Shown piece after piece: positions 2,514 to 14,254 of a DNA stretch of 23,851 nt. The translations under genes were made by a program, and so were the position numbers. This DNA comes from a virus, in IMG/VR virus record IMGVR_UViG_3300031974_002188, positions 1-23,851 of that record; one strand, 5' to 3'. Below the pieces are notes generated by a model. The model saw nothing but the letters and a program-made list of their open reading frames with translations. It was not told where the DNA came from and did not search any database. The first letter of the stretch is position 1, and each line of letters begins with the position of its first letter.

Positions 2514-2565
2514 TGGTAAAGATGGGAGTAGAGAACTATGGAAAAGAGTAATAAATAAAACAACT

Positions 2566-3117
2566 ATGGCAAATCATATCGAAAACTACATTATTGTTGA
2601 GAACTCAAACGAAGAAGTTCTTAACGAATTGAAAAGAGTATTCAACACAGCAGAAGGTGAATATGATGTTTGGACTGAAGAGTTGGCTAAAAGAGTCTTC
2701 GGTGAAGAAGTACCATCTGTATATGATAGAGAATGGTACGACACTAATTGTGGTTCTAAGTGGATGCATGGCCGTATCGAAGATGATTCAGATGGAGAAC
2801 AACATATCACTATGACATCTGCATGGGATGCTATCAATGGGTTCGTTGGTAGACTTGCAGAAAACCTCCGTAAAATAAAAAGTGATGTTGTGGTATACAA
2901 CACCTTTGAAGATGAGGGTTTTAATTTCTGTGGCGTCTACTTTACAACTGAACACTATACTGATACTGAGTGGTACGATCCATCAGAAGATTATGATATT
3001 GAAGAGATGTGGGAATCCGATGAATTGATGGAAGAGTATGGTAATACACTACATCAGATTCTATTAGACCACAAAGCAATCTACGAAGAAGAGTTGTCAT
3101 ATTTAACAAAATCTTAA
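2566..3117 (+). CDS. Api92-like (ferredoxin-like domain) phage protein, 183 aa
   Basis: The open frame extends upstream to 2506, but ATG 2566 begins with MANHIENYIIVENSNEEVL, the usual opening of Api92-like/DUF1281 proteins (M-x-N-x-x-x-N-x-I/V-x-I/V, then a helix with L-x-x-x-F). I therefore take 2566 as the start. The C-terminal half is strongly acidic and aromatic (ITMTSAWD, FNFCGVYFTTEH, EWYDPSEDYD). It is probably a soluble cytoplasmic protein; the biochemical role of the family is not known. Its stop codon lies inside the TTAACA repeat region that controls the next unit, so the operon ends here without an obvious hairpin terminator. Confidence 0.65.
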   Translation: MANHIENYIIVENSNEEVLNELKRVFNTAEGEYDVWTEELAKRVFGEEVPSVYDREWYDTNCGSKWMHGRIEDDSDGEQHITMTSAWDAINGFVGRLAENLRKIKSDVVVYNTFEDEGFNFCGVYFTTEHYTDTEWYDPSEDYDIEEMWESDELMEEYGNTLHQILLDHKAIYEEELSYLTKS

Positions 3118-3159
3118 CACATTCATTATTGGATAGTATCAAATTTATTAGTATATTTA
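3103..3159 (+). promoter_or_regulatory. TTAACA-repeat promoter (copy 1)
   Basis: TTAACA occurs at 3103-3108 and 3114-3119 (11-bp period), followed by 9 bases, TTG at 3129-3131, 20 bases and TATATTTA at 3152-3159. The ATG of the next gene is at 3178. The distance from the second repeat to the -7 box (32 bases) is identical to that in the copies at 7087 and 14181. The first repeat overlaps the end of the upstream gene. Confidence 0.7.
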
Positions 3160-3177
3160 CAACCTAATAATAATTGA

Positions 3178-3666
3178 ATGGCTAGATACAATCCCTTTAG
3201 ATGGTATACATCAAACAAGTATCGTAAGAAACCTTTAAAATCATCTGCACCTTTATTGTTGAAGATTCGTAATGGTGACTTTGAGTATTCACCATTCTAT
3301 AAAGAAGCAGAAGACAATCATAAGTTGTATCATAAGATGTATGATGAGTATATGAAGACATCATCAATCACAGATATCAACGAACGAAAGGTAGAGGCTC
3401 ATCAGTATGCTAAGATGAAACGAATCAAAGCATATAAGTTAGAAGAGGTTGGATTGGAAGAAGAAGAAACTCGCCTCAAACGATTGAGAGATGAACTTAC
3501 ATCTGAGTTTGGTAAAGACCTTTGGGATAAGTGTTTAGAACAACAAAGAGGTAAGGGTACTACTGAAGATATGTATTGGTGGTATAAGAAACAATGTAAG
3601 ATGGGACAGACACCATCAGAGATTGCGATTTCATTAGGTAGAAAAACAACTAAAGGGTTAAAGTAA
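3178..3666 (+). CDS. hypothetical protein (162 aa), first gene under TTAACA promoter
   Basis: ATG 3178 follows the -7 box by 18 nt with no Shine-Dalgarno site. The protein is highly charged and mostly helical. It has a basic N-terminus (RWYTSNKYRKKPLKSS), a central region rich in Lys/Glu/Tyr, an EEEETRLKRLRDELTSEFG stretch (about residues 95-113) likely to be coiled coil, and a C-terminal segment ending in a small helical motif (GQTPSEIAISLGRKTTKGLK) that looks like a helix-turn-helix fragment. It is coupled to the next gene by a single-base gap. No family is recognised. The basic ends plus the HTH-like tail would allow nucleic-acid binding, which is only a suggestion. Confidence 0.65.
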   Translation: MARYNPFRWYTSNKYRKKPLKSSAPLLLKIRNGDFEYSPFYKEAEDNHKLYHKMYDEYMKTSSITDINERKVEAHQYAKMKRIKAYKLEEVGLEEEETRLKRLRDELTSEFGKDLWDKCLEQQRGKGTTEDMYWWYKKQCKMGQTPSEIAISLGRKTTKGLK

Positions 3667-3667
3667 T

Positions 3668-4003
3668 ATGTTATACGATCCAGACAACGAACTCACAGAA
3701 GATGAGATGAAACAATTGTCAGAAGATGAGTTCTTTGAGTATTTAGATTCTCAAGCTGAATACCTAAAGCAATTCACCAAACCATTGGGTGAGTATCATA
3801 CCAAACGATATGCTAGTATATCAGCAAAGGTAGAAGGTAGGGAACTTACTAATGATGAGTTTGATTTCGCAAAGAAGGTAGGTAAGGAAGGTGATATGGA
3901 AAATTATCAACGGATTATTGATACGATGGAAGAGAAAGGTTTGGAAGAGCCTGACAAATATGTGAAGAATGTAAAGACGAATCGCTCTCAATGGTTTGAT
4001 TAA
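3668..4003 (+). CDS. hypothetical acidic protein (111 aa)
   Basis: It starts one base after the stop of the previous gene (TAA-T-ATG), so translation is probably coupled. It is acidic with Glu/Asp-rich helices (LTEDEMKQLSEDEFFEYLDSQ at the N-terminus) and no membrane segment. Paired with the basic protein upstream it could form a complex, which is an inference from charge and coupling. It ends 6 nt before tRNA-Leu, so the same transcript probably reads into the tRNA cluster. No recognisable family. Confidence 0.65.
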   Translation: MLYDPDNELTEDEMKQLSEDEFFEYLDSQAEYLKQFTKPLGEYHTKRYASISAKVEGRELTNDEFDFAKKVGKEGDMENYQRIIDTMEEKGLEEPDKYVKNVKTNRSQWFD

Positions 4004-4009
4004 TAATAT

Positions 4010-4094
4010 GCTCGGGTGGTGAAATAGGTAGACACGAGGGACTTAAAATCCCTTGACCATTGCGGTCGTGCCGGTTCGAGCCCGGCCCCGAGTA
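4010..4094 (+). tRNA. tRNA-Leu (anticodon UAA)
   Basis: This is a class II tRNA of 85 nt. Acceptor GCTCGGG (4010-4016) pairs with CCCGAGT (4087-4093), with G-U at the first pair. The anticodon loop CTTAAAA (4042-4048) sits on stem AGGGA/TCCCT. There is a long variable arm, and a T arm with GCCGG-TTCGAGC-CCGGC. The discriminator is A4094; CCA is not encoded. It reads UUA, a preferred codon in this AT-rich genome. Confidence 0.95.
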
Positions 4095-4098
4095 CTAA

Positions 4099-4172
4099 GC
4101 ACCCATAGCTCAATTGGATAGAGCAACGCACTTCTAATGCGTAGGTTACAGGTTCGACTCCTGTTGGGTGTA
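4099..4172 (+). tRNA. tRNA-Arg (anticodon UCU)
   Basis: A 74-nt tRNA. Acceptor GCACCCA (4099-4105) pairs with TGGGTGT (4165-4171), again G-U at the first pair. The anticodon stem is ACGCA/TGCGT with loop CTTCTAA (4131-4137), anticodon TCT at 4133-4135. The T loop TTCGACT is canonical. It reads AGA. CCA is not encoded. Only 4 nt separate it from tRNA-Leu. Confidence 0.95.
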
Positions 4173-4176
4173 CAAA

Positions 4177-4249
4177 GACCTCTTAACTCAGTTGGTAGAG
4201 TATCACACTTTTAATGTGAGAGTCCAGGGTTCGAGCCCCTGAGGGGTCA
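4177..4249 (+). tRNA. tRNA-Lys (anticodon UUU)
   Basis: A 73-nt tRNA. Acceptor GACCTCT (4177-4183) pairs with AGGGGTC (4242-4248). Anticodon stem TCACA/TGTGA with loop CTTTTAA (4208-4214), anticodon TTT at 4210-4212. T loop TTCGAGC; discriminator A4249; no encoded CCA. It reads AAA, consistent with supplementing AT-rich codon use. Confidence 0.95.
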
Positions 4250-4263
4250 CTAAAATAAATGAT

Positions 4264-4533
4264 ATGGATTTTTTGATAGGACTTTCTTCAGTAATACCAA
4301 TGGTATTCTTTAATAAGATGGTACTTAATGTAGTACCTAAAGTTCACCCACATACAACGATGGGTATGATTATGATTATGTTAGTAGGTACAGGTGTAAT
4401 ATCAATCAGCTGGACATTTGGTCTACAATCGGAGATTACCAACAACACATCCTTTGTAATGGGAGTTGGGTTGGCTTTGTTCACTAATATGATTAGTAAG
4501 ATATTATATCTTCTACAAAAACCATTTGGATAA
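4264..4533 (+). CDS. small multi-pass membrane protein (89 aa)
   Basis: Starts 15 nt after tRNA-Lys. Hydrophobic segments at about residues 3-23 (FLIGLSSVIPMVFFNKMVL), 32-52 (TMGMIMIMLVGTGVISISWTF) and 64-84 (FVMGVGLALFTNMISKILYL) predict three membrane spans with a very short cytoplasmic tail. Three short spans in under 100 residues is the class I holin layout, but no endolysin gene is nearby and the sequence has no recognised holin motif. The call therefore stays at membrane protein. The -33 element of the next promoter (TTG 4526-4528) lies inside its last codons. Confidence 0.65.
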   Translation: MDFLIGLSSVIPMVFFNKMVLNVVPKVHPHTTMGMIMIMLVGTGVISISWTFGLQSEITNNTSFVMGVGLALFTNMISKILYLLQKPFG

Positions 4534-4556
4534 TTAAAAAATATTTTGTATATTTG
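4526..4556 (+). promoter_or_regulatory. Bacteroidetes-type promoter, near-leaderless
   Basis: TTG at 4526-4528, 20 bases, then TATATTTG at 4549-4556. The ATG of the next gene is at 4562, only 5 bases after the -7 box. Since Bacteroidetes transcripts usually start a few bases downstream of the -7 box, the mRNA would have essentially no 5' leader. Confidence 0.75.
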
Positions 4557-4561
4557 TACCA

Positions 4562-4834
4562 ATGAAATGGGAAAGTGTAAATATAACTGATAAAATTCAC
4601 ATTCTAAAAGAATTGATGAACAATACTATCGCATTTGATGATGGTGACATACATATTGTAAATGCTTTGATTACTGGTTCTCAAAACGATAGAGGTTCTG
4701 ATGACGATTATGGGTTTGATATACAACCACACCATTTGACCTATATGAGAACGATTTGGGATACTGCTATTGAAAATCAAATTGACGATTCAGTAATCCA
4801 AAAGATAAAACTTAAAATGCGGGAGAGGGGTTAA
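4562..4834 (+). CDS. hypothetical protein (90 aa), probably leaderless mRNA
   Basis: The start at ATG 4562 directly follows a strong promoter, leaving no room for an RBS. The protein is acidic in the middle (TGSQNDRGSDDDYGFDIQ, about residues 38-55) and otherwise helical, without membrane segments or known motifs. Its last five codons and stop (ATG CGG GAG AGG GGT TAA, 4817-4834) form the 5' acceptor-like strand and D-arm of the cloverleaf RNA at 4819-4891. Folding or processing of that RNA would remove the 3' end of the message. Function unknown. Confidence 0.65.
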   Translation: MKWESVNITDKIHILKELMNNTIAFDDGDIHIVNALITGSQNDRGSDDDYGFDIQPHHLTYMRTIWDTAIENQIDDSVIQKIKLKMRERG

Positions 4835-4891
4835 GAGAAACCCGTTTGACATCCAGTCAAAAGGAGGTGGGGCAGTTGCCACCCTCCCGCT
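4819..4891 (+). ncRNA. tRNA-like cloverleaf, possibly a non-canonical tRNA-Gly(UCC)
   Basis: The sequence folds as a cloverleaf of tRNA dimensions. Acceptor-like stem GCGGGAG (4819-4825)/CTCCCGC (4884-4890); two bases; arm GGGT(T)/(A)ACCC (4828-4843); one base; five-pair stem TTTGA/TCAAA with 7-nt loop CATCCAG (4845-4861); four bases; arm GGTGG/CCACC with 8-nt loop (4866-4883). U73 and GCGGG/CCCGC match glycine tRNAs, and the middle loop would give anticodon UCC (Gly). Against a normal tRNA: position 33 is A instead of U, the T loop lacks TTCGA, the D loop lacks GG, and it overlaps the upstream CDS by 16 nt. It may be a degenerate tRNA, a tRNA mimic or an unrelated structured RNA. Confidence 0.45.
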
Positions 4892-4906
4892 CTAATTACA
4901 TACATA

Positions 4907-5254
4907 GTGGATTATAAGAGTTTAGAAAAACTAATGGAAGTCCAATACCTAAAAGGTAGATTGGATGAGTTGTACAAAGGATATGTTCCTAATGATACCT
5001 CTACAAAAAACAGATTCGTAGATTCTCGCATATCTAAGTACGAAGAGAAACTTAGAAATGTGGATGAGGTTATATTCCATCTCTACAGAATCGAACAAAT
5101 TAATGTTCAACATTCCAAACGGAAATCAAAACAGAATATGAGTAATCTTTTGTTTGATGCTGTCAGTATCTTAAATGGTATATATTCAGAAAACCCAACA
5201 TTTGAAGTTATGGATTTGTTGAATAGGATGGAAGAGCAACTGAATAAGTATTGA
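4907..5254 (+). CDS. hypothetical protein (115 aa)
   Basis: GTG 4907 opens the frame just after the cloverleaf; ATG 4934 (in frame, starting MEVQYLKGRL) is an alternative start. The protein is helical and charged: a central segment with SKYEEKLRNVDEVIFHLYRIEQ (about residues 43-65) and a C-terminal DLLNRMEEQLNKY are likely coiled-coil or bundle helices. There is no membrane segment or catalytic motif. The next gene starts 1 base after its stop, so it is coupled to the thioesterase and probably belongs to the same operon. Family not recognised. Confidence 0.6.
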   Translation: MDYKSLEKLMEVQYLKGRLDELYKGYVPNDTSTKNRFVDSRISKYEEKLRNVDEVIFHLYRIEQINVQHSKRKSKQNMSNLLFDAVSILNGIYSENPTFEVMDLLNRMEEQLNKY

Positions 5255-5255
5255 T

Positions 5256-5654
5256 ATGATATACATTACTCAACATCCAATTAAGAAATCAGATTTAGGA
5301 TTTCACGGAAACCTATTTGGTGGTAAGTTGTTAGCTTGGTTAGATGCAGCTGCTGTTGCATTCTGTGCAGAGTATTGTGATACTCCTCGTATGGTAACTA
5401 AGTCTATAGACCATTGTGTTTTCAATAACCCTGCCAAAGAAGGTCAGTTGGTTAAGATATATGGTAGTGTCCAAAACATAGGAACTACATCTATCACATT
5501 GAAGATGGAGGCTCGTTCTCATAATGTATATAATGGAAAACAGAATACCATACTTGCAACCAATATGACATTTGTTAGGATAGATGAGCAAGGTGATGCT
5601 ATCCCCATTTCTGAAAGAGCACATAATAAATTCAAAACGAGTAACGATGAATAA
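5256..5654 (+). CDS. acyl-CoA thioesterase, hotdog fold (YciA-like)
   Basis: Predicted to hydrolyse acyl-CoA to free fatty acid and CoA in the cytoplasm. The N-terminal motif NLFGGKLLAWLDAAAVAFC (about residues 19-37) matches the hotdog acyl-CoA hydrolase signature (G-x-x-FGG-x-x-L-x-W-x-D, with the catalytic Asp in the long helix). The following VTKSIDHCVFNNPAKEGQLVKIYG and SITLKMEARSHNV segments fit the family's beta strands. At 132 aa it is a normal single-domain length. It is coupled to the gene before it (1-nt gap) and overlaps thyA by 8 nt (ATGAATAA). A complete host-type metabolic enzyme inside a phage operon is unusual and suggests an auxiliary metabolic gene affecting lipid or CoA pools. 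The substrate cannot be inferred. Confidence 0.85.
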   Translation: MIYITQHPIKKSDLGFHGNLFGGKLLAWLDAAAVAFCAEYCDTPRMVTKSIDHCVFNNPAKEGQLVKIYGSVQNIGTTSITLKMEARSHNVYNGKQNTILATNMTFVRIDEQGDAIPISERAHNKFKTSNDE

Positions 5655-6669
5655 CTTAGACAATCAATATAATCTTCTACTCAACGAATTGTTGGAAGGT
5701 GGTGTTGGTAAAGAAGATAGGACAGGTACAGGAACTCTGTCTGTTTTCGGTAGACAAATCAGACACAATATGAAGGATGGGTTTCCTCTCATTACCACAA
5801 AGAAGATGGCTATCAAAACAATGATGACCGAACTCAAATGGTTTTTGAAAGGAGATACCAACATTAAGTATTTGGTGGAGAATGGATGTAATATTTGGAA
5901 TGGTGATGCTTATAAAGCATACTTAGATAAAGAAACTACACCAGGCATACCTCCACATGATTTTGTTTTATCAAGAAGTGAGTTCACCGATAAGATTAAA
6001 ACCGATGATGAGTTTGCTAAAAAGTGGGGAGAGTTAGGCCCTATCTATGGTAAACAATGGAGAAGTTGGAGAGGGCATCCCTATAGTACTAATCCAAATG
6101 ATTTTGACCAAATCGAAAAACTTATTCAACAACTTAGAACAAATCCAGACTCAAGAAGGTTGATGGTTAATGCTTGGAATGTTAGTCAATTGGATGACAT
6201 GACTCTCCCACCTTGTCATTATGGATTCCAAGTTTATACAAGAGAGCTGAATATGGAAGAAAGAATGGAGTATGCTTTATCTAAAAATGATTTTAGATTT
6301 ACAGATGATATCATAAATGGTGAAGATTATGAAAAACATAACATCCCAACCAGAGCAATCTCACTAATGTGGAATCAGAGAAGTGTAGATACATTTTTAG
6401 GTCTTCCATTCAATATTGCTTCCTATGGAATGTTATTGGAGTTATTAGCTTGGGAAGTTAATATGGTTGCTGATGAACTGATTGGTAACTTAGGTGATGT
6501 ACATCTTTACACCAATCACATAGAACAAGCTACAGAACAACTTGGTCGTACTCCTTTTGAACTACCTACAATAGAGGTATCCAATGTGGATATTCTTAAT
6601 GGTGAGTTCGATTATGAGATTAACGACTATCAATCACACCCAACAATTAAAGCACCATTATCAAATTAA
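5647..6669 (+). CDS. thyA: thymidylate synthase (ThyA family), 340 aa
   Basis: Converts dUMP and methylene-tetrahydrofolate to dTMP and dihydrofolate, supplying thymidine for phage DNA. Clear motifs: EDRTGTGTLSVFGRQIRH near the N-terminus (dUMP-phosphate Arg), LKWFLKGDTNIKYL, GPIYGKQWRSW, SRRLMVNAWNV, the catalytic LPPCHYGFQ with Cys190, and SVDTFLGLPFNIASYG. The frame is open upstream to 5584, but ATG 5647 (MNNLDNQYNLLLNELLEGG) is the natural start and overlaps the thioesterase stop. The protein is longer than E. coli ThyA (264 aa) owing to an insertion before GPIYG (about residues 95-130) and one after CHYGFQ (about 200-235), as seen in other phage and Bacteroidetes homologues. A 1-nt gap separates it from the next gene. 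Confidence 0.97.
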   Translation: MNNLDNQYNLLLNELLEGGVGKEDRTGTGTLSVFGRQIRHNMKDGFPLITTKKMAIKTMMTELKWFLKGDTNIKYLVENGCNIWNGDAYKAYLDKETTPGIPPHDFVLSRSEFTDKIKTDDEFAKKWGELGPIYGKQWRSWRGHPYSTNPNDFDQIEKLIQQLRTNPDSRRLMVNAWNVSQLDDMTLPPCHYGFQVYTRELNMEERMEYALSKNDFRFTDDIINGEDYEKHNIPTRAISLMWNQRSVDTFLGLPFNIASYGMLLELLAWEVNMVADELIGNLGDVHLYTNHIEQATEQLGRTPFELPTIEVSNVDILNGEFDYEINDYQSHPTIKAPLSN

Positions 6670-6670
6670 T

Positions 6671-6847
6671 ATGAAAGACACAAAGTTTAAAATCGGAGAT
6701 AAGGCATTCAAACCAAAAGGGTATAAATTCCCATGTACGATCGTATCAGTATTCGAATCCTCAAAAGGAATCAGAGTAGTAGGCGAGATGGATGAGTATG
6801 GATTACTCCACATCTTTAATGAAGACCAATTGGAACACTATACATAA
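6671..6847 (+). CDS. small SH3-like barrel phage protein (58 aa)
   Basis: The true start is ATG 6671, one base after the thyA stop; the longer upstream frame lies inside thyA. The sequence KIGDKAFKPKGYKFPCTIVSVFE is the typical opening of a small KOW/SH3-like barrel (GD-x-A/V, then P-G/C-x-I/V-x-x-V). It is followed by RVVGEMDEYGLLHIFNEDQLE, a pattern I know from short phage proteins next to nucleotide-metabolism genes. Probably a nucleic-acid or protein-binding module; partner unknown. Its stop overlaps the next start by 1 nt (TAATG). Confidence 0.7.
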   Translation: MKDTKFKIGDKAFKPKGYKFPCTIVSVFESSKGIRVVGEMDEYGLLHIFNEDQLEHYT

Positions 6848-7083
6848 TGGTAATACACATTCATTATAGCCACTTTGGTGATAAGGCACGAAAGTTATTC
6901 TTAGAAGATAAGCTAGGAGATTGTTCTATCGACTACCAACACAACTCTATAATGGGTTGGGATGGTGATGAGGAAATCAATGTATATGATTTCACCAAAA
7001 TATGCAGGATGGACAATCGGTTTAACTCCTATGAGCTGTATCATACAGAGTGGGGTATCACATTGGAAATAGATAAATCTTAA
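6847..7083 (+). CDS. hypothetical protein (78 aa)
   Basis: The start codon overlaps the previous stop (TAATG), so the two are translationally coupled. The protein is acidic/aromatic with His-rich N-terminal strands (VIHIHYSHFGDKAR) and a C-terminal beta segment (YELYHTEWGITLEIDKS). No motif is recognised. It is the last gene of the operon: its TAA at 7081-7083 is followed at once by the TTAACA repeats and a strong intrinsic terminator. Confidence 0.6.
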   Translation: MVIHIHYSHFGDKARKLFLEDKLGDCSIDYQHNSIMGWDGDEEINVYDFTKICRMDNRFNSYELYHTEWGITLEIDKS

Positions 7084-7086
7084 AAT

Positions 7087-7143
7087 TTAACATAAATTTA
7101 ACATATGGGGACTTGGATAAGTCCCCTTTTTTTGTTACATTTA
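7087..7143 (+). promoter_or_regulatory. TTAACA-repeat promoter (copy 2)
   Basis: TTAACA at 7087-7092 and 7098-7103 (11-bp period), 9 bases, TTG at 7113-7115, 20 bases, TACATTTA at 7136-7143. The 32 bases from the second repeat to the -7 box equal those of copies 1 and 4. The core elements straddle the terminator at 7107-7133. The ATG of the VWA gene is at 7154, leaving a leader of only a few bases. Confidence 0.75.
7107..7133 (+). terminator. intrinsic terminator
   Basis: Perfect 8-bp stem GGGGACTT (7107-7114)/AAGTCCCC (7119-7126) with loop GGAT, followed by seven T (7127-7133). It ends the thioesterase-thyA operon. The promoter of the next gene is built through it. Confidence 0.95.
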
Positions 7144-7153
7144 CAAAGTAATA

Positions 7154-9268
7154 ATGAGAGATACTATGAGAGACAATACTAAATACTCCTCCTATTGGTT
7201 AAAGGATGGACTCTTTGATGATGACTCTACTATTGTCAATGATAATCAATCCAAACAAAATAATCTTCTCGCTCTCGCTTCTTATAAGCGGGCAGTATCT
7301 AACTTCGTTAACATTGTAACGGGTGAGAATATTAATGTTACATTTGACCAACGTGGGGGTGATTCTTATACGGATGGTAAATCAGTTACCATCTCAGCTA
7401 AGATGGACGATAAGGACTTTGACCCTACTGTGGGTCTAGCACTACACGAAGGTTCTCACATCAAACTGACTGATTTCAATACGCTTAAAGACCTTCAGAT
7501 TGGTAAGTATCCCGATCCTATAAATGCTACTTACATCACAGAGTTGATGGAGAAGTATGGTGGGATGCACATCTCAGAGGCAACAGAACACATCACTGGT
7601 ATTCTAAAGAACCTACTGAATGTCATTGAAGACCGCCGTATTGACAATTACATTTACACTACTTCACCTGGCTACAAAGGGTACTACCACTCTATGTACG
7701 ATAAGTACTTCAACGCTAAGATTGTTGACAAAGGTCTTCAGTCTTCTGAGTATCGTACTAATGATTGGGAATCCTATATGTTCCGTATCATCAACATCAC
7801 CAACGCGCATCGTGATTTGGATGCACTTCCAATGTTGAGAAAGGTTTGGGAGATGCTTGATTTGAAGAACATTGGTCGGCTCAAAAATACTTATGAAGCA
7901 TTCACCCTCGCTGCTGAAGTCTTCAAAGTGATTGAAGATTCAATCCCAGCCCCACAAAAGTCTGACAACAATGATGATAGTGGTAATGGTTCTGAAGGTG
8001 ATTCTTCTGAAGATATGAATGGTGGTGGTGATTCATCCGAAACCAATGGTAGTGACAATACTGAAGGTAGTGGTGGTGAGTCAACCGAATCATCCAATGG
8101 TATGGATGACTCTGATGGTGATGCTGAAGGTGATGATGTGATGAGTGGTCAACCCAATCGTTCTTCCAATGGTGGTGGAGGTAAGGGTTCTTCAGATGTG
8201 CCTGATTTGACTGACCGACAGAAGAAACAACTTGAGAAAGCTATTGAGAAGCAAAAGAAGTTTCAAGATGGTGATATCACAAAGAAGAAAGTAAGTAAGA
8301 CTGAGAACGAAAAGTTGAAGACTCTATCCAATGCCGGAATTGAGCAGAAAGAGGCTGGGTCTACTTATGGTGGTCAACACTACTACAGAAAGAACACATC
8401 AACGCCTGTTATTGTGGTTCGTAACTTCACCAAGCAGCTTGTCGATTCCAAAACCATCGATATGATTTGTTCGTATGATTGGCGTGTAGACAATAACCAA
8501 CAGAACATCAACAAAGGTATTCAGATTGGTATTCAGTTGGGTAAGCGATTGAAGGTTCGTTCTGAAGAGCGTTCGTTGATTACTCCCCGAATGAAGAATG
8601 GTCGAATCTCAGGTCGACTACTGCATGAGTTGGGTATGGGTAATACACAAATCTTCGACCAGACTGTGATTAACAAACACAAGCCGGCATTCGTTCACAT
8701 ATCGATTGACGCTAGTGGTTCTATGAATGGTTCTAATTGGGACAACGCTCAGGTGGCTGCGGTGGCTATCGCTAAAGCGGCTTCAATGACTTCCAACCTT
8801 GATGTGGTCATCTCCTACCGAAGTATCCAACATAGTGGTGGCAACAATTACCAACCACTTACTCTGATTGCATACGATAGTAGGAAAGATAAGATATCAA
8901 AGATTCAACAACTCTTTAAGTATCTTGATACCAATGGTACTACTCCTGAAGGTTTGTGTTTTGAGTCTATCCTTGATGACATTGTAAAAACCAACAAAGG
9001 TGTTGATTCTTACTTCATCAACTTCTCAGATGGTCAGCCGGGCTTCGATAACAACGACATCTACTACTCAGGTGAGTATGCTATAAAACATACAGCGGAG
9101 CAAGTACGGAAGATGAATATGGCTGGTGTAAAAGTTATGTCCTACTTCATCACAGACTATGGTTATGCAATGGACAACTTCAAAGCTATGTATGGTAAGG
9201 GTGCACAACGAATCGATGTAACATCTCTAATTCCTCTGGCGAAGACTCTGAACAAAATGTTTGAGTGA
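7154..9268 (+). CDS. HExxH metallopeptidase-like / VWA-domain protein, 704 aa (CobT-like)
   Basis: The N-terminal region carries GLALHEGSHIKL, an HExxH zinc-metallopeptidase-type motif (His98, Glu99, His102). The middle (about residues 265-345) is a low-complexity acidic Ser/Gly/Asp/Asn linker followed by a basic helix. The C-terminal third is a von Willebrand factor A domain with the MIDAS motif DASGS (Asp519, Ser521, Ser523) and a later FSDGQPG. Together with the MoxR-type ATPase downstream it matches the CobS/CobT-like pairs of marine T4-like phages. MoxR ATPases with VWA partners act as metal-dependent remodelling machines. Cobalamin synthesis is not implied because no other pathway gene is here. 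ATG 7154 is used; ATG 7166 is possible. It is preceded by a TTAACA promoter. Confidence 0.85.
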   Translation: MRDTMRDNTKYSSYWLKDGLFDDDSTIVNDNQSKQNNLLALASYKRAVSNFVNIVTGENINVTFDQRGGDSYTDGKSVTISAKMDDKDFDPTVGLALHEGSHIKLTDFNTLKDLQIGKYPDPINATYITELMEKYGGMHISEATEHITGILKNLLNVIEDRRIDNYIYTTSPGYKGYYHSMYDKYFNAKIVDKGLQSSEYRTNDWESYMFRIINITNAHRDLDALPMLRKVWEMLDLKNIGRLKNTYEAFTLAAEVFKVIEDSIPAPQKSDNNDDSGNGSEGDSSEDMNGGGDSSETNGSDNTEGSGGESTESSNGMDDSDGDAEGDDVMSGQPNRSSNGGGGKGSSDVPDLTDRQKKQLEKAIEKQKKFQDGDITKKKVSKTENEKLKTLSNAGIEQKEAGSTYGGQHYYRKNTSTPVIVVRNFTKQLVDSKTIDMICSYDWRVDNNQQNINKGIQIGIQLGKRLKVRSEERSLITPRMKNGRISGRLLHELGMGNTQIFDQTVINKHKPAFVHISIDASGSMNGSNWDNAQVAAVAIAKAASMTSNLDVVISYRSIQHSGGNNYQPLTLIAYDSRKDKISKIQQLFKYLDTNGTTPEGLCFESILDDIVKTNKGVDSYFINFSDGQPGFDNNDIYYSGEYAIKHTAEQVRKMNMAGVKVMSYFITDYGYAMDNFKAMYGKGAQRIDVTSLIPLAKTLNKMFE

Positions 9269-9280
9269 TGAATCTAAAAG

Positions 9281-9335
9281 TTAACACAAACTTAACATTG
9301 GAGATTTGGAAGTTACAAAAAGATTCCTTACTTTA
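9281..9335 (+). promoter_or_regulatory. TTAACA-repeat promoter (copy 3, variant)
   Basis: TTAACA at 9281-9286 and 9292-9297; the 18-base block TTAACACAAACTTAACAT is identical to that at 14181-14198. TTG follows at 9306-9308, then 19 bases and a poorer -7 box TTACTTTA (9328-9335). Spacing is 1-2 bases shorter than in the other three copies. It lies in the 114-nt gap before the MoxR gene, where I see no hairpin terminator. Confidence 0.6.
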
Positions 9336-9382
9336 GTACTGTAATTGAGAGAGATAATAAACCGATAAACAAACAATAGATT

Positions 9383-10654
9383 ATGGCGAAAGCACAAAGA
9401 AATGTATTCCTCAAAGTTGTTCGTAATGACAACAAAGAGTTGATTCTCGTTGATTCGAATGGTACTGAGTTTATGGTGCCTGTGATTAATGAGAAGGGTA
9501 GTTCACTCTACAAACGGGCAGTTGCCGCTGCTAACAATCCTTCTAAGTATTGTTTCAAAGCTAGGGTGAAAGGTTCTCTGTCTAACGGAACATTAGAGTT
9601 CGGTCGTGTTCCAGGTGAGAAGTTCAATGGGGCTGAGCCTGTTGGAAACTTCAACAAACCAAATGGTGGTTTGGAGGTTTTCAAAATGGTGACCATCGAA
9701 ACTCCACCATCTGAACCTGTTGAGAAGCCAATGGAAGACAACTTCCTCAGTTTCATCCATACGGAGGCTAAGGGTTTGAAACCCCGAATGTTGTTTATGA
9801 GTGAGTTGAAGTGGAAGTATCTTATCCGAAACATCATCCGTGGTAAGAACATTATGATGACCGGCCCTGCTGGTTGTGGTAAGACGATGGCCGCCAAAGC
9901 AGCCGCCAATTCGATTGAGGGTTATACAATGGAAATCTTCAACTTGGGTTCAACGCAAGACCCCCGAGCAACTCTGATTGGTAATACCCAATTCGACACC
10001 AACAAAGGTACGGTCTTCAACCCATCACCTTTCGTCAAAGCAATTCAGACTCCAAACACTGTGGTAGTGTTGGATGAGATTAGCCGGGCTCACCCTGAAG
10101 CTCACAACATTCTGATGACGGTGTTGGATGCTGGTCAACGATACCTTCGGTTGGATGAGGCGGCTGATTCGCCTGTTGTCAAAGTGGCTGATGGTGTTTC
10201 CTTCATCGCTTCCGCTAACATCGGTAATGAGTACACATCGACTCGACAAATGGATAGGGCGATGATTGACCGATTCACCATCATTGAGATGGATACTCTG
10301 ACCAAAGATGAAGAGTCTGAACTACTTCGGATGATGTACCCATCGGTTGATGAGTCTGTGGTCAATGCGGTTGCTGAGATTACTTCGATGACCCGAAGTG
10401 AGGTTAAGAAAGAAACTCCTCAACTGACCAACTCACTATCTACCCGAACTGCGGTAGAGATTGGTTCTCTCCTCTACGATGGGTTCTCACTCGATGAGGC
10501 TGCTGAGATTACCATCTACCCTCTCTTCGATGACGCGGGAGGTGCTTCGTCCGAACGGACTTACATCCGACAATTCGTTCAGAAGTTCGTTGGGTCAACT
10601 GATGAGGACAATCTCTTCAATACTGAAACTGAAGATTTGACCAATCCTTTCTAA
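9383..10654 (+). CDS. MoxR-type AAA+ ATPase, 423 aa (CobS-like)
   Basis: An ATP-driven protein-remodelling enzyme. Walker A GPAGCGKT (residues 161-168), Walker B VVVLDE (227-232), sensor-1 region FIASANIGNEY, and an arginine-finger-like segment (RQMDRAMIDRF) place it in the MoxR/CobS group. Residues 1-110 are an extra beta-rich N-terminal domain ahead of the ATPase. It follows the HExxH/VWA gene but has its own TTAACA promoter and ends at a strong terminator, so it can be expressed separately. Codon and base composition differ from the surroundings: by hand count 32 of 60 bases in 9841-9900 and 29 of 60 in 10321-10380 are G/C, and arginine is mostly CGA/CGG/CGT. Marine phages carry it as 'cobS', a label I regard as misleading. 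Confidence 0.9.
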   Translation: MAKAQRNVFLKVVRNDNKELILVDSNGTEFMVPVINEKGSSLYKRAVAAANNPSKYCFKARVKGSLSNGTLEFGRVPGEKFNGAEPVGNFNKPNGGLEVFKMVTIETPPSEPVEKPMEDNFLSFIHTEAKGLKPRMLFMSELKWKYLIRNIIRGKNIMMTGPAGCGKTMAAKAAANSIEGYTMEIFNLGSTQDPRATLIGNTQFDTNKGTVFNPSPFVKAIQTPNTVVVLDEISRAHPEAHNILMTVLDAGQRYLRLDEAADSPVVKVADGVSFIASANIGNEYTSTRQMDRAMIDRFTIIEMDTLTKDEESELLRMMYPSVDESVVNAVAEITSMTRSEVKKETPQLTNSLSTRTAVEIGSLLYDGFSLDEAAEITIYPLFDDAGGASSERTYIRQFVQKFVGSTDEDNLFNTETEDLTNPF

Positions 10655-10676
10655 CAACATCGGTTGGAGTTAAGAG

Positions 10677-10702
10677 CCCCACCATTCAGGTGGGGTTTTT
10701 TT
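10677..10702 (+). terminator. intrinsic terminator after MoxR gene
   Basis: Stem CCCCACC (10677-10683)/GGTGGGG (10689-10695), loop ATTCA, followed by seven T. The A-G before the stem can pair with the first T residues to extend it. Confidence 0.95.
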
Positions 10703-10712
10703 AAAACTGATT

Positions 10713-10742
10713 TTGATAATAACTTTATTTTTTGTATATTTA
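10713..10742 (+). promoter_or_regulatory. Bacteroidetes-type promoter (TTG-N19-TATATTTA)
   Basis: TTG at 10713-10715, 19 bases, TATATTTA at 10735-10742, 16 nt before ATG 10759. It starts the run of small genes up to about 12212. No TTAACA repeats are present; the terminator occupies that position. Confidence 0.7.
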
Positions 10743-10758
10743 TCACAAATTAAATTCT

Positions 10759-11070
10759 ATGGATATAAAAGAATTAACAAATATTGTAGTTGAGACTCTT
10801 AGAGAAGATGGGTTCTTTGAGAATAAGTGGATTGATGAACATAAGTTTAGACCACGCTTCTACAATTCAGTTAAGAGTATTAACCTATCAAATGATTTAG
10901 GTCATACATTAGAATCTTTGTTTACTATAGCAGAGGAAATATCTTCGGAGATTATATCGGAGAATGTAACTAATACAATGGATGGGTTGGTAGAAAAGAA
11001 TATTGTAAGTAGAGTCCACGATGAAGATGGTGAACTTACTTACTCACTAAATAAAGATTACAATGGCTAA
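10759..11070 (+). CDS. hypothetical protein (103 aa)
   Basis: A TTG at 10732 would lengthen the frame, but it lies inside the promoter -7 region, so ATG 10759 (MDIKELTNIVVETLREDGFF) is the start. The protein is mainly helical and acidic, with a helix around residues 41-70 (NDLGHTLESLFTIAEEISSE) and a C-terminal strand pair containing VSRVHDEDGELTYSL. There is no membrane segment or known motif. It is the first gene of a small-gene operon and overlaps the next gene by 8 nt. Function unknown. Confidence 0.6.
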   Translation: MDIKELTNIVVETLREDGFFENKWIDEHKFRPRFYNSVKSINLSNDLGHTLESLFTIAEEISSEIISENVTNTMDGLVEKNIVSRVHDEDGELTYSLNKDYNG

Positions 11071-11494
11071 AGAAAGAACATTGAATGAAATAAGACAGGT
11101 CAAAGATTCTGTATACGAACACACATATGATTTAGATAATGTGTTGCCTGATGAGTATTGGAATGCACTTTCTCAATCATTAGAAGAGGTTGACCAATCA
11201 TACAATACACCCGATTGGGATGAGATGGATAGTAACTACTATCATCAATTAAGAGAACGACTCAATAAGGGTGAGGATGAAGTAGGGCCACGAAACTTTA
11301 AACAATATCAGAGTACAGAACTACCCATCCAATCGATTGTAATTCCTGCTGGTAGGCAGCACGATGGTAAGAAGATGGTTGCGTATTATCACATCATCGT
11401 TGAAGATATGGAATTGGGTGAATGTAATGGATACTACCAATTGGTTACAGAAGAACAATTAGAAAAAGAGTTTAACATCAAATATAACAACTAA
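11063..11494 (+). CDS. hypothetical protein (143 aa)
   Basis: Starts 8 nt inside the preceding gene. The N-terminal half is acidic and helical (DEYWNALSQSLEEVDQSYN). The C-terminal half looks beta-rich (PIQSIVIPAGRQHDGKKMVAYYHIIV, then GYYQLVTEEQLEKEF), ending in a helix. No motif, membrane span or signal is seen. Coupled in the same operon as its neighbours. I do not recognise it. Confidence 0.6.
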   Translation: MAKERTLNEIRQVKDSVYEHTYDLDNVLPDEYWNALSQSLEEVDQSYNTPDWDEMDSNYYHQLRERLNKGEDEVGPRNFKQYQSTELPIQSIVIPAGRQHDGKKMVAYYHIIVEDMELGECNGYYQLVTEEQLEKEFNIKYNN

Positions 11495-11497
11495 GCT

Positions 11498-11698
11498 ATG
11501 AAATACTACATTGCAAAAGTAAAGGTGATTACAACAGATAGTAAAGGTCGCCAAAAGAAAACAACAGAACAATATTGTGTTCACGCGGTATCGGTTACAG
11601 ATGCTGAAACAAAGGTGCATGAAGAATTTAAGAACGATGGTCTTACATTCGAAGTTACATCAGTATTGGAAACAAAGATTATAAAGGTAATCAACTAA
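11498..11698 (+). CDS. DUF4494-like small protein (66 aa)
   Basis: The pattern KYYIAKVKVITTDSKGRQKK, then TEQYCVHAVSVTDAETKVHEEF matches what I remember of DUF4494 (aromatic start, K-V, basic loop, K-x-T-E-x-Y-x-V-x-A-x-S-x-T-x-A-E). That small family of unknown function is found mainly in Bacteroidetes and their mobile elements. It folds presumably as an alpha/beta sandwich. The assignment is from memory and would support the Bacteroidetes host. It lies in the operon with a 3-nt gap upstream and 9-nt gap downstream. Confidence 0.6.
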   Translation: MKYYIAKVKVITTDSKGRQKKTTEQYCVHAVSVTDAETKVHEEFKNDGLTFEVTSVLETKIIKVIN

Positions 11699-11707
11699 GG
11701 AGACTAA

Positions 11708-11941
11708 ATGGTGTATGTATCTGGTTCAACTGTGGTGTTTAGTGTATTCGATACTTTAAAGGTTGGTAATATCGTAGAGGTGTTGGTATCTAAAGATAGT
11801 TTTGTATATACAATAAAATCTGAAGAGGGTAAGGTATATGAGAATGTACCAACAGACACCCAAACATCTGAAGTATTTATACACAGCACCGCAACCAGGT
11901 TGTTCAATAAATCAAATCAAAGTGGAGAACAAGAAGTTTAA
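11708..11941 (+). CDS. hypothetical beta-rich protein (77 aa)
   Basis: ATG 11708 has a good AGGAG site at 11698-11702 that overlaps the previous stop. The protein is dominated by alternating hydrophobic residues (VYVSGSTVVFSVFD, NIVEVLVSKDSFVYTIKS), suggesting a small beta barrel of SH3 or OB type. It ends with a short polar tail. There is no signal or membrane helix. The same region read in another frame gives a longer open frame (11838-12212), whose first third I regard as non-coding. Function unknown. Confidence 0.6.
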   Translation: MVYVSGSTVVFSVFDTLKVGNIVEVLVSKDSFVYTIKSEEGKVYENVPTDTQTSEVFIHSTATRLFNKSNQSGEQEV

Positions 11942-11945
11942 GTTG

Positions 11946-12212
11946 ATGAAGAAGAGGGTACTAAAGGTGTATCCTAAAGCAACTACTCAAATGACTAATG
12001 ATGGTATGTACTATGTTTCTACTGGTACTGATAAATGTATTATGTCTGAATATATGATACCACCACAAAAGGATGTGTATAACGCATGGTCAGTATTGAA
12101 TGATACCATCAAAATAAATCAGAACATTCAGAGAACACATCCAAACAGATTGGATAGTGCATCATTTGAAAAAAGATTTCACAGAATATCTCGTAGAAAT
12201 AAACGTGGATAA
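11946..12212 (+). CDS. hypothetical basic protein (88 aa)
   Basis: The frame is open from 11838, but the upstream part overlaps the preceding gene and has poor protein character. ATG 11946, four bases after that gene's stop, begins a convincing MKKRVLKVYPKATTQM. The protein is basic, with a short beta region containing GMYYVSTGTDKCI, the segment IPPQKDVYNAWSVLND, and a strongly basic C-terminus (RFHRISRRNKRG) that could contact nucleic acid. Last gene before a 61-nt gap holding a promoter-like TATTTATT. Confidence 0.6.
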   Translation: MKKRVLKVYPKATTQMTNDGMYYVSTGTDKCIMSEYMIPPQKDVYNAWSVLNDTIKINQNIQRTHPNRLDSASFEKRFHRISRRNKRG

Positions 12213-12217
12213 TCACT

Positions 12218-12243
12218 TTGATTAATTCTACTTTCATATTTAT
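12218..12243 (+). promoter_or_regulatory. possible promoter (TTTG...CATATTTAT)
   Basis: A -7-like CATATTTA (12235-12242) lies in the gap before ATG 12274, with TTTG at 12217-12220. The spacing (14 bases) is well short of the 19-20 seen elsewhere, so this is a weak candidate. Confidence 0.25.
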
Positions 12244-12273
12244 TGTAAATCACTAATATTAAATTACAATGTT

Positions 12274-12564
12274 ATGAAAAAGTTTTCATCAAAGCCGAGA
12301 GGTAGAGTCAATATGGGTGGAGCAACCCAAGACAAAGATAGAGATAGATTAAAGAAGTTAGGTAAGAACTTTAACTCAATTGATTTTGAACTGAGTTCAG
12401 CTATCAACGAATCAAACTATACAGATAGAGGTTTGTCTATTGGTAGTTTGTTGATTGGAAAACACTCTATTGATTTGACATACTCTGAGTGCAATAAGAT
12501 TATCGAAACATTAGAGAACGCACAAAGTACACATAAGCAAAAAATTAGGTTAGGACTATTCTGA
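12274..12564 (+). CDS. hypothetical protein (96 aa)
   Basis: Begins after a short AT-rich gap at ATG 12274. The N-terminus is basic and Gly/Arg-rich (KKFSSKPRGRVNMGGATQDKDRDRLKKLGKNF) and may be disordered. The C-terminal two thirds are helical with alternating polar and hydrophobic residues (YSECNKIIETLENAQSTHKQKI). No known motif. The next gene follows with a 1-nt gap (TGA-T-ATG), so translation is likely coupled. Unknown function. Confidence 0.6.
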   Translation: MKKFSSKPRGRVNMGGATQDKDRDRLKKLGKNFNSIDFELSSAINESNYTDRGLSIGSLLIGKHSIDLTYSECNKIIETLENAQSTHKQKIRLGLF

Positions 12565-12565
12565 T

Positions 12566-13000
12566 ATGTTTGAAAAAGATGAACTCTTCGACCAATTAAG
12601 TCGGGACGATCCTGATATGAAGGAGGCGATGGAAATAGTTGAGTATAGGAGCTTTAAAAGTTCTGTTCCCAATATCTTATTGTTAGAAGAGTTTGTCGAT
12701 ACGATATATAGAAAAGCAGTATCTAAAGACGACTTACAAACAATTTGGTTTTGTGAAAGATATATAAAGGACAGATATCTGTACACCAATGAGGAGTCTT
12801 CAGAAGAGTACAGACACAAAACGCAAGAAAGATTGATAGAGTTATCAAATAGAGTATCTAATGTCTCAGGTGGTAAGTATACACATCTAATGAAGTTTAT
12901 TGATGTTATCATTGGTACTCTATATGAATCCAATAAACTTTTGACAAAAGAAACATTAGAGTATTTGAACAAAGTGTACAAAGGAAAGGTTAAATTCTAA
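12566..13000 (+). CDS. hypothetical helical protein (144 aa)
   Basis: Coupled to the preceding gene by a single-base gap. The product is almost entirely helical and charged, with repeated amphipathic stretches (EFVDTIYRKAVSKDDLQTIW, ESSEEYRHKTQERLIELSNR, KETLEYLNKVYKG), resembling a small helical repeat or adaptor protein. No membrane span, metal site or active-site motif. It ends directly before the TATTTATA at 13001. Not recognised. Confidence 0.6.
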   Translation: MFEKDELFDQLSRDDPDMKEAMEIVEYRSFKSSVPNILLLEEFVDTIYRKAVSKDDLQTIWFCERYIKDRYLYTNEESSEEYRHKTQERLIELSNRVSNVSGGKYTHLMKFIDVIIGTLYESNKLLTKETLEYLNKVYKGKVKF

Positions 13001-13008
13001 TATTTATA
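13001..13008 (+). promoter_or_regulatory. TATTTATA motif immediately before a start codon
   Basis: TATTTATA begins one base after the stop codon of the upstream gene and ends 4 nt before ATG 13013. If it is a -10/-7 element, the mRNA for the next gene would be leaderless. No TTG at the host-type distance. Confidence 0.35.
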
Positions 13009-13012
13009 AACA

Positions 13013-13204
13013 ATGAGTATACATAAGATAGAAGACCCATACAAAAGTAAGATTGTCGAAATCTTACAATCTGAATCCGATTCAGACAAACGACTTCATC
13101 AACTGAAGTTGTATATGTTGGGTGAGTCTTACTTTAAAACATTGTCCAATGACGCTGCGTGGTTGGCACATGAGATTAACAAACAATATAGTCGGAATCG
13201 ATAA
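13013..13204 (+). CDS. hypothetical protein (63 aa)
   Basis: Small charged helical protein: IEDPYKSKIVEILQSESDSDKRLHQLKLYMLGESYF, then SNDAAWLAHEINKQYSRNR. No membrane segment. Its stop codon overlaps the start of the next gene (TAATG), so the two are translationally coupled. There is no sequence signature I can tie to a function. Confidence 0.55.
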   Translation: MSIHKIEDPYKSKIVEILQSESDSDKRLHQLKLYMLGESYFKTLSNDAAWLAHEINKQYSRNR

Positions 13205-13584
13205 TGGCAAATTCTGAATACTGGGATGACGGTGAATTCAATTTCTTCTCCAGCTTAGATGATGTAGATAAGTTAATGTATCTATATGATTTAATGGTGG
13301 GAGACTTTGTGCATGAGTACAATGGAGAAACCAATGTATTCGATGATTCATTTGAGATTGAGTTCGAAGAGGAAGAAGAAAGCATACGACATCAAGTCAT
13401 TGTATCATTCGATAAAGACTCTGTAGATTTGAGAGGAACTGACATAGAACTTTTAGATAAGGTTCTAGGTGATATGGTTATGAATGGTTTGTTGGTGTCT
13501 AATAAGAGAGTATTATTCGATGGTGATGATGTATTAGTAAGATGTAAATTTGTTGGTGAGACAAATCCGATATCACTAAACTGA
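13204..13584 (+). CDS. hypothetical acidic protein (126 aa)
   Basis: Coupled to the previous gene by a TAATG overlap. Very acidic N-terminal half including an EFEEEEES run (about residues 52-60). The C-terminal half has strand-like stretches (HQVIVSFDKDSVDLRG, NKRVLFDGDDVLVRCKFVG). It is soluble, without known motifs. High net negative charge raises the possibility of DNA mimicry or binding a basic partner, but this is speculation. It ends 78 nt before hsp20, in a gap that carries a promoter candidate. Confidence 0.6.
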   Translation: MANSEYWDDGEFNFFSSLDDVDKLMYLYDLMVGDFVHEYNGETNVFDDSFEIEFEEEEESIRHQVIVSFDKDSVDLRGTDIELLDKVLGDMVMNGLLVSNKRVLFDGDDVLVRCKFVGETNPISLN

Positions 13585-13612
13585 CATTTTGTCCATTTTA
13601 TGGAATGGTACA

Positions 13613-13641
13613 TTGATTGAACAATACCAATTGTAAATTTA
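13613..13641 (+). promoter_or_regulatory. promoter candidate for hsp20
   Basis: TTG (13613-13615), 18 bases, then TAAATTTA (13634-13641), 20 nt before ATG 13662. The -7 box fits TAnnTTTA but the spacing is slightly short. A small TCCAT-TTT-ATGGA hairpin lies just upstream (13592-13604). Confidence 0.45.
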
Positions 13642-13661
13642 AAATTAAAAACGGAGTTACT

Positions 13662-13997
13662 ATGTTTGCATTAGAAAGATTACTTAGAGATATGGATATT
13701 ACATATCGCACATGGGACAATTCATCGAACACATCGATGGTTGTTGGGGATGATAATCTAATTATGGAATTCGAAGTTCCAGGATTCTCAAAGAAAGACT
13801 TGAATGTAAAGGTCGAAAACAATGTATTATCAGTAAGTGGTTGTACAGAAGATAGGTCTTTTGATAAATCATACACACTGAGTAATGTATGGGATGCTGC
13901 AGAAGTTTCAGCTGAAGCAAAGAACGGTATCCTAACTATCACCATTCCTAAGAAAGAGGAAATGAAAAGCAAGGTGGTTGAGGTAAAGGTTAAGTAA
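13662..13997 (+). CDS. small heat-shock protein, Hsp20/alpha-crystallin family (111 aa)
   Basis: An ATP-independent holdase chaperone expected in the cytoplasm. The start is ATG 13662, with GGAG at 13653-13656; a TTG at 13617 that opens the frame lies in the promoter region. The alpha-crystallin domain is recognisable: MEFEVPGFSKKDLNVKVENN, then LSVSG, and near the end AEAKNGILTITIPKKEE, the family's A-x-x-x-(D/N)-G-(I/V)-L-x-(I/L)-x-(I/V)-P signature. The length is near the lower end for the family and the C-terminal I-x-I/V oligomerisation motif is weak (KVVEVKVK). Hsp20 genes are common in T4-like marine phages. The next gene begins directly after its stop. Confidence 0.92.
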   Translation: MFALERLLRDMDITYRTWDNSSNTSMVVGDDNLIMEFEVPGFSKKDLNVKVENNVLSVSGCTEDRSFDKSYTLSNVWDAAEVSAEAKNGILTITIPKKEEMKSKVVEVKVK

Positions 13998-14180
13998 GTG
14001 TTGCATAAACAAGTTATAGAAGTATCGGATAAATTATATTTAGTTTTAAGAAGAGTAAAAATAGATCATAGACCTATAGTAGATGCATGGAAAACTCATC
14101 TACAATCAGATATAGTTTTTAAGAAAGAACCATTCTATTATTTTTGTAGGAGTATTATAGATGTCGAACCGATAGATTAA
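13998..14180 (+). CDS. hypothetical protein (60 aa)
   Basis: GTG 13998 immediately follows the hsp20 stop; a GAGGTAAAGG purine block upstream could serve as RBS. The product is a small alternation of strand and helix (VIEVSDKLYLVLRRVKIDHRPIVDAW, then FYYFCRSIIDVEPID). No family is recognised. It would share the hsp20 message and ends one base before the TTAACA repeats of the next unit. Confidence 0.5.
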   Translation: MLHKQVIEVSDKLYLVLRRVKIDHRPIVDAWKTHLQSDIVFKKEPFYYFCRSIIDVEPID

Positions 14181-14237
14181 TTAACACAAACTTAACATAA
14201 GGGGGCTTGTATAAGTCCCCTTTTTTTATTATATTTA
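14181..14237 (+). promoter_or_regulatory. TTAACA-repeat promoter (copy 4)
   Basis: TTAACA at 14181-14186 and 14192-14197, 9 bases, TTG at 14207-14209, 20 bases, TATATTTA at 14230-14237. Geometry is identical to the copies at 3103 and 7087. As at 7087, the core promoter is interleaved with an intrinsic terminator. The next ATG is at 14255. Confidence 0.75.
14201..14227 (+). terminator. intrinsic terminator after hsp20 unit
   Basis: Stem GGGGGCTT (14201-14208)/AAGTCCCC (14213-14220) with one G-U pair, loop GTAT, followed by seven T (14221-14227). It is nearly the same cassette as 7107-7133. Confidence 0.92.
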
Positions 14238-14254
14238 CTATGTAAATAAAAACG

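Follow-up and report, generated by a model that had tools for sequence, protein, structure and literature searches.

A head-to-tail TTAACA operator at phage promoters resembles the predicted binding site of PhoP/PhoB-type response regulators of Bacteroidota

INTRODUCTION

The PhoP box of Bacillus subtilis consists of TTAACA-like hexamer repeats that are placed about 5 bp apart, often as four half-sites, at sigma-A promoters, and in the middle promoters of phage T4, a MotA box replaces the -35 element. Here, we describe a related arrangement in a 23,851-bp virus fragment (record IMGVR_UViG_3300031974_002188, in its whole length referred to as the window), which probably derives from a phage of Bacteroidota and in which direct repeats of the form TTAACA-N5-TTAACA, referred to as pairs, stand upstream of four promoters. 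The hexamer and spacing of the B. subtilis box are almost identical to those of the window pair, the host there being Gram-positive. As in T4, consensus promoters coexist with another promoter class that has an upstream element of its own and a modified core; unlike the MotA class, the window promoters keep the TTG, so that no -35 element is replaced, and their repeat is host-like. The core elements and the spacing of 20 are those of the Bacteroidota promoter (-33 TTTG / -7 TAnnTTTG), but most promoters of this phage group that bear a pair have TTTA or TTAG at the end of the -7 box.

Two experimentally studied systems are closer in function. In Riemerella anatipestifer, DNA affinity purification sequencing of PhoP yielded 583 peaks with TTTAACA as the most conserved bases of the motif, binding at moxR and other promoters was seen in electrophoretic mobility shift assays, moxR and batA (VWA) were reduced in a phoP mutant, with moxR-batA being direct targets, and the regulon was very broad (PMC9603813). 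The window resembles this regulon of a global OmpR-family regulator in that its operators also precede MoxR and VWA genes; the Riemerella sites, in contrast, are chromosomal, and their motif was published without core-promoter geometry (PMC9603813). In cyanophages, Pho boxes (P-SSM2 pstS; S-PM2d) are likewise host PhoB-type operators, and a set of S-PM2d promoters of unrelated genes, including DNA polymerase, is bound by host PhoB (PMC10976474). These boxes differ from the window sites in belonging to another phylum, in being PyTTAAPyPy(T/A) 8-mers, and in having no reported terminator overlap; furthermore, they rest on a measured phosphate response and PhoB binding, whereas the window operators are predictions from sequence (PMC10976474). 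Beyond these two papers, the searchable literature yielded nothing on a Pho box, a UP element, or a phage promoter motif in Bacteroidota, and little on the regulation of Bacteroidota phage promoters.

RESULTS

Exactly four pairs occur in the window, at positions 3103, 7087, 9281, and 14181 of the + strand (sites 1 to 4), in agreement with a preliminary description of this DNA. Dinucleotide shuffles of the window, a comparison which that description had named as a possible refutation, gave a mean of 0.01 pairs, and no shuffle reached four. Among the 25 TTAACA hexamers on both strands, 11 bp was the only spacing seen between 7 and 40 bp, and it was seen four times; single hexamers inside genes had been described as not paired in this way. 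All four pairs stand upstream of a Bacteroidota-type TTG / TAnnTTT(A/G) promoter, with the TTG retained at a fixed distance. The layout repeat-N9-TTG-N20-TAnATTTA that had been noted for three copies is exact at sites 1, 2, and 4, and site 3 (N8-TTG-N20-TACTTTAG) is indeed shorter, by 1 base; its box had also been called weaker but is not simply so, since orthologous promoters have kept this box in the form TACTTTAG / TATCTTAG. Measured against the Bacteroidota pattern TTG-N19-21-TAnnTTTG, the TTG and the N20 are present, and the box ends in A (sites 1, 2, and 4) or TTAG (site 3). Sites 3 and 4 have 18 identical bases in common, as previously noticed. Sites 2 to 4 start 0 to 12 bases after a stop codon. 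Site 1, which had also been described as intergenic, is not fully so and extends into the end of the open reading frame (ORF) at 2506-3117. We consider both the operator and its geometry to be well established.

The wider scan that had been proposed for this layout was run on other viral DNA. The complete layout recurred in 20 stretches with TTTA and in 46 with TTTG, whereas a control with a 12-bp period (TTTA form only) and a control with reversed hexamers each gave 0 stretches; on the basis of the shuffles and these two controls, chance or base composition was rejected as the origin of the pairs. The 20 records found first hold about 60 pairs, compared with 1 for a control read backward. Among phage pairs lying outside the search pattern, 22 of 47 had a -7 box 30 to 33 bp downstream, with about 0.4 expected, and where repeat 2 was exact, repeat 1 was exact in 26 of 49 and had one mismatch in 11. 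Within the hexamer, T2, A3, and A4 are nearly invariant in these pairs, and C5 is kept in 43 of 44 cases in repeat 2 and in 26 of 39 in repeat 1.

A control with a 10-bp period and TTTG was not empty. It matched 42 stretches, which were concentrated in a few phages and many of which belong to one 139-kb phage (IMGVR_UViG_3300033512_000218); in this phage, the 10-bp form TTTAACATTTATTAACA lies upstream of about 20 promoters in the same place. The 10-bp period is a genuine variant, with the half-sites still on one DNA face, and its existence means that the exact 11-bp spacing is not universal. Two exact 10-bp pairs are also present in Riemerella phage RAP44, whose host species is the one with the measured PhoP motif (PMC9603813). 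One of these pairs is in the full layout, with the TTG and, 31 bp away, TATATTTG; the two face each other at 47.4 to 48.5 kb, in a gap beside a gene annotated as a transcriptional repressor. Bacteroides phage B124-14 also has two exact pairs, but these are on the strand opposite to most genes and were therefore not counted as support. A promoter-like sequence, TTAACACTTCCTTAACATTTGTTGCGTTG, was identical in four metagenome-assembled genomes titled Alphaproteobacteria (L028, L061, L065, and L068), which is unusual for a Bacteroidota-type promoter.

Orthologous promoters were compared in about fourteen related viral records; distances of more than 7000 in this comparison are artefacts that arise where a gene start was extrapolated at a contig end. 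A pair was present upstream of 8 of 10 VWA homologs, 8 of 10 MoxR homologs, and 11 of 14 uvsE genes, with two further cases in which it precedes a small gene before uvsE; the uvsE count is inflated because these loci were fetched with the full pattern, while the VWA and MoxR loci were not so selected. Pairs were absent upstream of nearly all homologs of other window genes and upstream of all eight homologs of the gene behind site 1. The earlier proposal of a phage regulon, for which absence at orthologous genes had been named as a counterargument, is thus supported for the VWA, MoxR, and uvsE promoters and not for site 1. Since the VWA proteins are only 42 to 64% identical across the set, this conservation is not the result of recent copying. 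In 453 kb of related phage DNA, 39 exact pairs had a period of 11, 8 had a period of 10, and no other period exceeded 4.

The pair-bearing promoters also differ in their cores. Among 35 of them, the -7 box was TAnnTTTA in 20, TAnnTTAG in 10, and TTTG in 5, and GTAA followed within 12 bases in 26, compared with 7 of 69 operator-less promoters. The operator-less candidates mostly read TTTGGAT...TATATTTGT, and most consensus core promoters in these phages stand without a pair; in the window, such promoters (TTTG...TATATTT(G/A)) occur at 998, 4526, and 16668, and one with TTTA occurs at 10713. A conserved transcript start, approximately nnnGTAATnATTGAGA, follows the pair-bearing promoters and not the operator-less ones. 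A nonconsensus core combined with an upstream site would resemble an activator-dependent promoter class.

The coexistence of two promoter classes would also be expected if the pair were the operator of a phage-encoded activator, acting in the manner of T4 MotA on middle promoters, with its likeness to a host Pho box being due to convergence or captured specificity. The number of promoters in the 10-bp variant, up to about 20 per phage, would suit such an activator, as would the host sites at the phage-like distance described below, most of which do not precede phosphate genes. However, the same hexamer, period, and helical phasing are found at host phosphate genes, and the viral records that contain the layout range from 5 to 335 kb and differ in the DNA around it. 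Moreover, no gene for an OmpR-type winged-helix protein (Trans_reg_C, PF00486) was found in 50 viral records, which are largely fragments and in which other folds were not searched, so an activator of another fold is possible. On balance, we consider a phage-encoded activator unlikely, but a serious alternative.

The same element was sought in candidate hosts (Bacteroidia / Bacteroidota genomes), which may not be the host of the window phage itself. Near pst operons, 5 exact and 9 one-mismatch pairs were found at period 11, compared with 0 and at most 2, respectively, at other periods, and one operon had four tandem half-sites. Six pairs at period 11 preceded PstS genes, compared with one over nine other periods. 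The controls S15 and Flavobacteriaceae Porin_O_P (phosphate-selective porin) showed no excess at period 11, and 0 of 27 Na/Pi cotransporter genes had a pair upstream, two such genes being found by a scan in the opposite direction. In unselected host pairs, the -7 box follows at about 9, 20 to 21, or 31 bp, that is, on an 11-bp ladder, compared with 31 to 32 bp in phages. A scan of 395 Bacteroidia genomes gave 21 matches at 9 to 10 bp from the -7 box (0 in reversed controls) and 61 matches at 20 to 21 bp (1 in reversed controls). The genes behind the 9- to 10-bp sites (n = 21) included 10 for PhoU_div (DUF47) and 2 for PBP_like_2 (PstS type); those behind the 20- to 21-bp sites (n = 29) included 4 for PHO4, 2 for Porin_O_P, 1 for PhoU_div, 5 for DUF1573, and 1 for a MoxR ATPase, and one further gene encoded an OmpR-family regulator (Response_reg and Trans_reg_C) that is related in sequence to RegX3, MtrA, and PhoP. 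As the pair is tied to PhoU_div, PstS, and PHO4 genes on an 11-bp ladder, it represents a predicted Pho box of Bacteroidia. In three Bacteroidales loci (L044, L062, and L066), a common pair-bearing promoter is followed by CACCGCG, with two copies about 100 bp apart in L066.

Host pairs with spacers such as AGTCA recur at 20 to 21 bp before DUF1573 and other nonphosphate families (L446, L447, L450, and L464-L473), which suggests further targets or a related regulator. It is conceivable that the phage sites are bound by another host regulator of the OmpR family, with a near-identical half-site and a signal other than phosphate: host sites at 20 to 32 bp precede DUF1573, DUF456, and other nonphosphate genes, and spacer preferences differ by class. 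Against this, TTTAACA, the only fitting measured Bacteroidota motif that we found, belongs to PhoP, and the very broad PhoP regulon of Riemerella accounts for these observations with no need of another factor (PMC9603813), so that we regard the existence of such a factor as quite unlikely.

Still less probable, in our view, is that the pair is a UP-like element contacted by the alpha C-terminal domains of Bacteroidota RNA polymerase, which would strengthen a promoter without regulating it. This idea fits the placement of the two sites, which lie a short way upstream of -33 and are separated by one turn (10 or 11 bp), as well as the 11-bp ladder in hosts and the A-rich flanks. The half-site is, however, not an A/T tract free of base-specific C or G, and the strong conservation of T2, A3, A4, and the C5 of repeat 2 suits major-groove readout rather than A-tract recognition; in addition, the pair is missing from most consensus core promoters of the same phages and strongly linked to PhoU_div and PstS genes in hosts.

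At sites 2 and 4, a hairpin of about 8 to 9 bp that resembles a Rho-independent terminator and is followed by seven T fills the spacer, the -33 TTG being located in the 5' arm and the loop. Across nine related hairpins, 97.5% of base pairs are kept and three pairs are changed on both sides (covarying). Stems of at least 8 bp occur in 38% of phage sites, compared with 14% in shuffles, and in the 10-bp set, spacer hairpins were not above expectation; the hairpin was thus rejected as a general feature and belongs to a subset only.

The coordinates of the window features are given in Table 1. The fragment encodes a thymidylate synthase, the VWA protein, the MoxR-type ATPase, an Hsp20-like protein, UvsE, a ClpP-like protease, a GroES-like protein, and baseplate wedge proteins. 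Promoter 4 is separated from uvsE by a 37-codon ORF (14255-14365), and in more distant relatives, the pair precedes the uvsE start directly, at about 74 to 90 bp. No phosphate gene was recognized near the sites or elsewhere in the 24-kb window, and control of phosphate-acquisition genes, which would be expected of a Pho box, is thus not seen within it. A baseplate protein of the window is 41 to 51% identical to proteins of Flavobacterium phage immuto and of Mel-JY01. The recorded host of Mel-JY01 (PP395634) is Microcystis, yet it is this phage that has the 51% identical protein, the next best match being from a Flavobacterium phage, and its host label may merit a check.

Table 1. Operators, core promoters, hairpins, and downstream genes in the window
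Feature	Sequence or elements	Position	Strand	Remarks
Site 1 operator	TTAACAAAATCTTAACA	3103..3119	+	Repeat 1 in last codons of ORF 2506-3117; repeat 2 contains its stop
Site 1 core promoter	TTG, N20, TATATTTA	TTG 3129-3131; box 3152-3159	+	Upstream of ORF 3178-3666 and tRNA unit
Site 2 operator	TTAACATAAATTTAACA	7087..7103	+	
Site 2 terminator-like hairpin	GGGGACTTGGATAAGTCCCC + seven T	7107..7133	+	Contains -33 TTG 7113-7115
Site 2 -7 box	TACATTTA, then CAAAGTAATAATGAGA	7136..7143	+	
Site 3 operator	TTAACACAAACTTAACA	9281..9297	+	
Site 3 core promoter	TTG, N20, TACTTTAG, then TACTGTAATTGAGAG	TTG 9306-9308; box 9329-9336	+	
Site 4 operator	TTAACACAAACTTAACA	14181..14197	+	Directly after stop of ORF 13998-14180
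Site 4 terminator-like hairpin	AGGGGGCTT-GTAT-AAGTCCCCT + T run	14200..14227	+	Contains -33 TTG 14207-14209
Site 4 -7 box	TATATTTA, then CTATGTAAAT	14230..14237	+	-33 TTG at 14207-14209
Conserved transcript start		7144-7160, 9337-9350, 14238-14250		Also in related loci L485-L510
704-aa protein		7154..9268	+	HEGSH (HExxH); VWA MIDAS-like DASGSMNGS; remote PHROG matches (cobalamin biosynthesis protein, peptidase)
MoxR-type AAA+ ATPase		9383..10654	+	AAA_5; weak bpMoxR
UvsE-type UV-damage endonuclease		14547..15449	+	UvdE, 3.4e-63

DISCUSSION

Judged by the operator and its occurrence in host genomes, it seems somewhat probable that the phage promoters use a host response regulator of the PhoP/PhoB family (OmpR family). 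This reading is the best supported because the hexamer, period, and phasing match both the element at host phosphate genes and the measured PhoP motif, and because no winged-helix regulator was found in the 50 viral records. It had been anticipated in the preliminary description, which compared the repeat with one-helical-turn period just upstream of -33 to OmpR/PhoB-type operators, and is supported by the occurrence of this element upstream of pst and DUF47/Pit genes and of one response-regulator gene in hosts, as well as by the TTTAACA motif of PhoP (PMC9603813). The Riemerella data provide independent experimental support that the hexamer is a PhoP target in Bacteroidota and that the regulon is broad and includes MoxR and VWA genes (PMC9603813). 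With a Pho box, the phage pairs have in common the 11-bp head-to-tail period, the occurrence of the same element at host phosphate genes, and the helical phase relative to the core.

In this model, the core promoter (TTG at -33, TAnnTTTA or TAnnTTAG at -7) would serve host RNA polymerase, and the two TTAACA half-sites, which lie on one DNA face about one helical turn upstream of -33, would be occupied by a head-to-tail dimer of a host PhoP/PhoB-type protein at about -45 to -61. The bound dimer may recruit RNA polymerase, or stabilize it, at a core with a -7 box that deviates from TAnnTTTG. This would bring the VWA-HExxH protein, the MoxR ATPase, and the uvsE unit under the control of a global regulator of the host, with operator-less consensus promoters serving other genes of the phage. 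That a factor binds in the host of the phage, that it activates rather than represses, and that there is a link to phosphate are steps that we infer.

Several observations weigh against this reading. The phage sites lie 31 to 32 bp from the -7 box and keep the TTG, whereas those at host phosphate genes mostly lie at 9 to 21 bp; the genes behind host sites at 31 to 32 bp with TTG (29 scanned) are mixed, with two Na/Pi cotransporters from related species as the only phosphate genes. At least one of these host sites is in a prophage-like stretch (the L067 sequence equals viral record L090). The spacer and flanking bases also differ, with (C/G)TTAACATTAAC preferred in host 9- to 10-bp sites and TTTAACAAAAT in phage sites, although ten of these host sites are orthologous promoters. 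The isolated relatives with named hosts, immuto and Mel-JY01, carry no pairs. Lastly, up to about 20 promoters per phage carry the 10-bp form, which seems a large number for a purely phosphate-conditional switch. That phosphate is the signal for the phage sites is possible rather than probable.

In a wider sense, and with rather more doubt, it could be proposed that diverse phages of Bacteroidota have an entire promoter class activated by a global response regulator of the host, instead of making a middle activator of their own, and that in some of them the operator, the terminator of the upstream gene, and the core are fused in a module of about 60 bp. Such a short operator-terminator-core module would both terminate the preceding transcript and initiate the one that follows. 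If the phage promoters do use a host regulator, a recognizable operator would predict which genes of a phage are controlled by a two-component system of its host, and the cyanophage PhoB case would be extended to another phylum and to many phages. For the hosts, the computational Pho box of Bacteroidia with its 11-bp ladder agrees with the one motif from DNA affinity purification sequencing that we found, and the finding that MoxR and VWA genes share this motif in both host and phage provides a concrete and testable lead.

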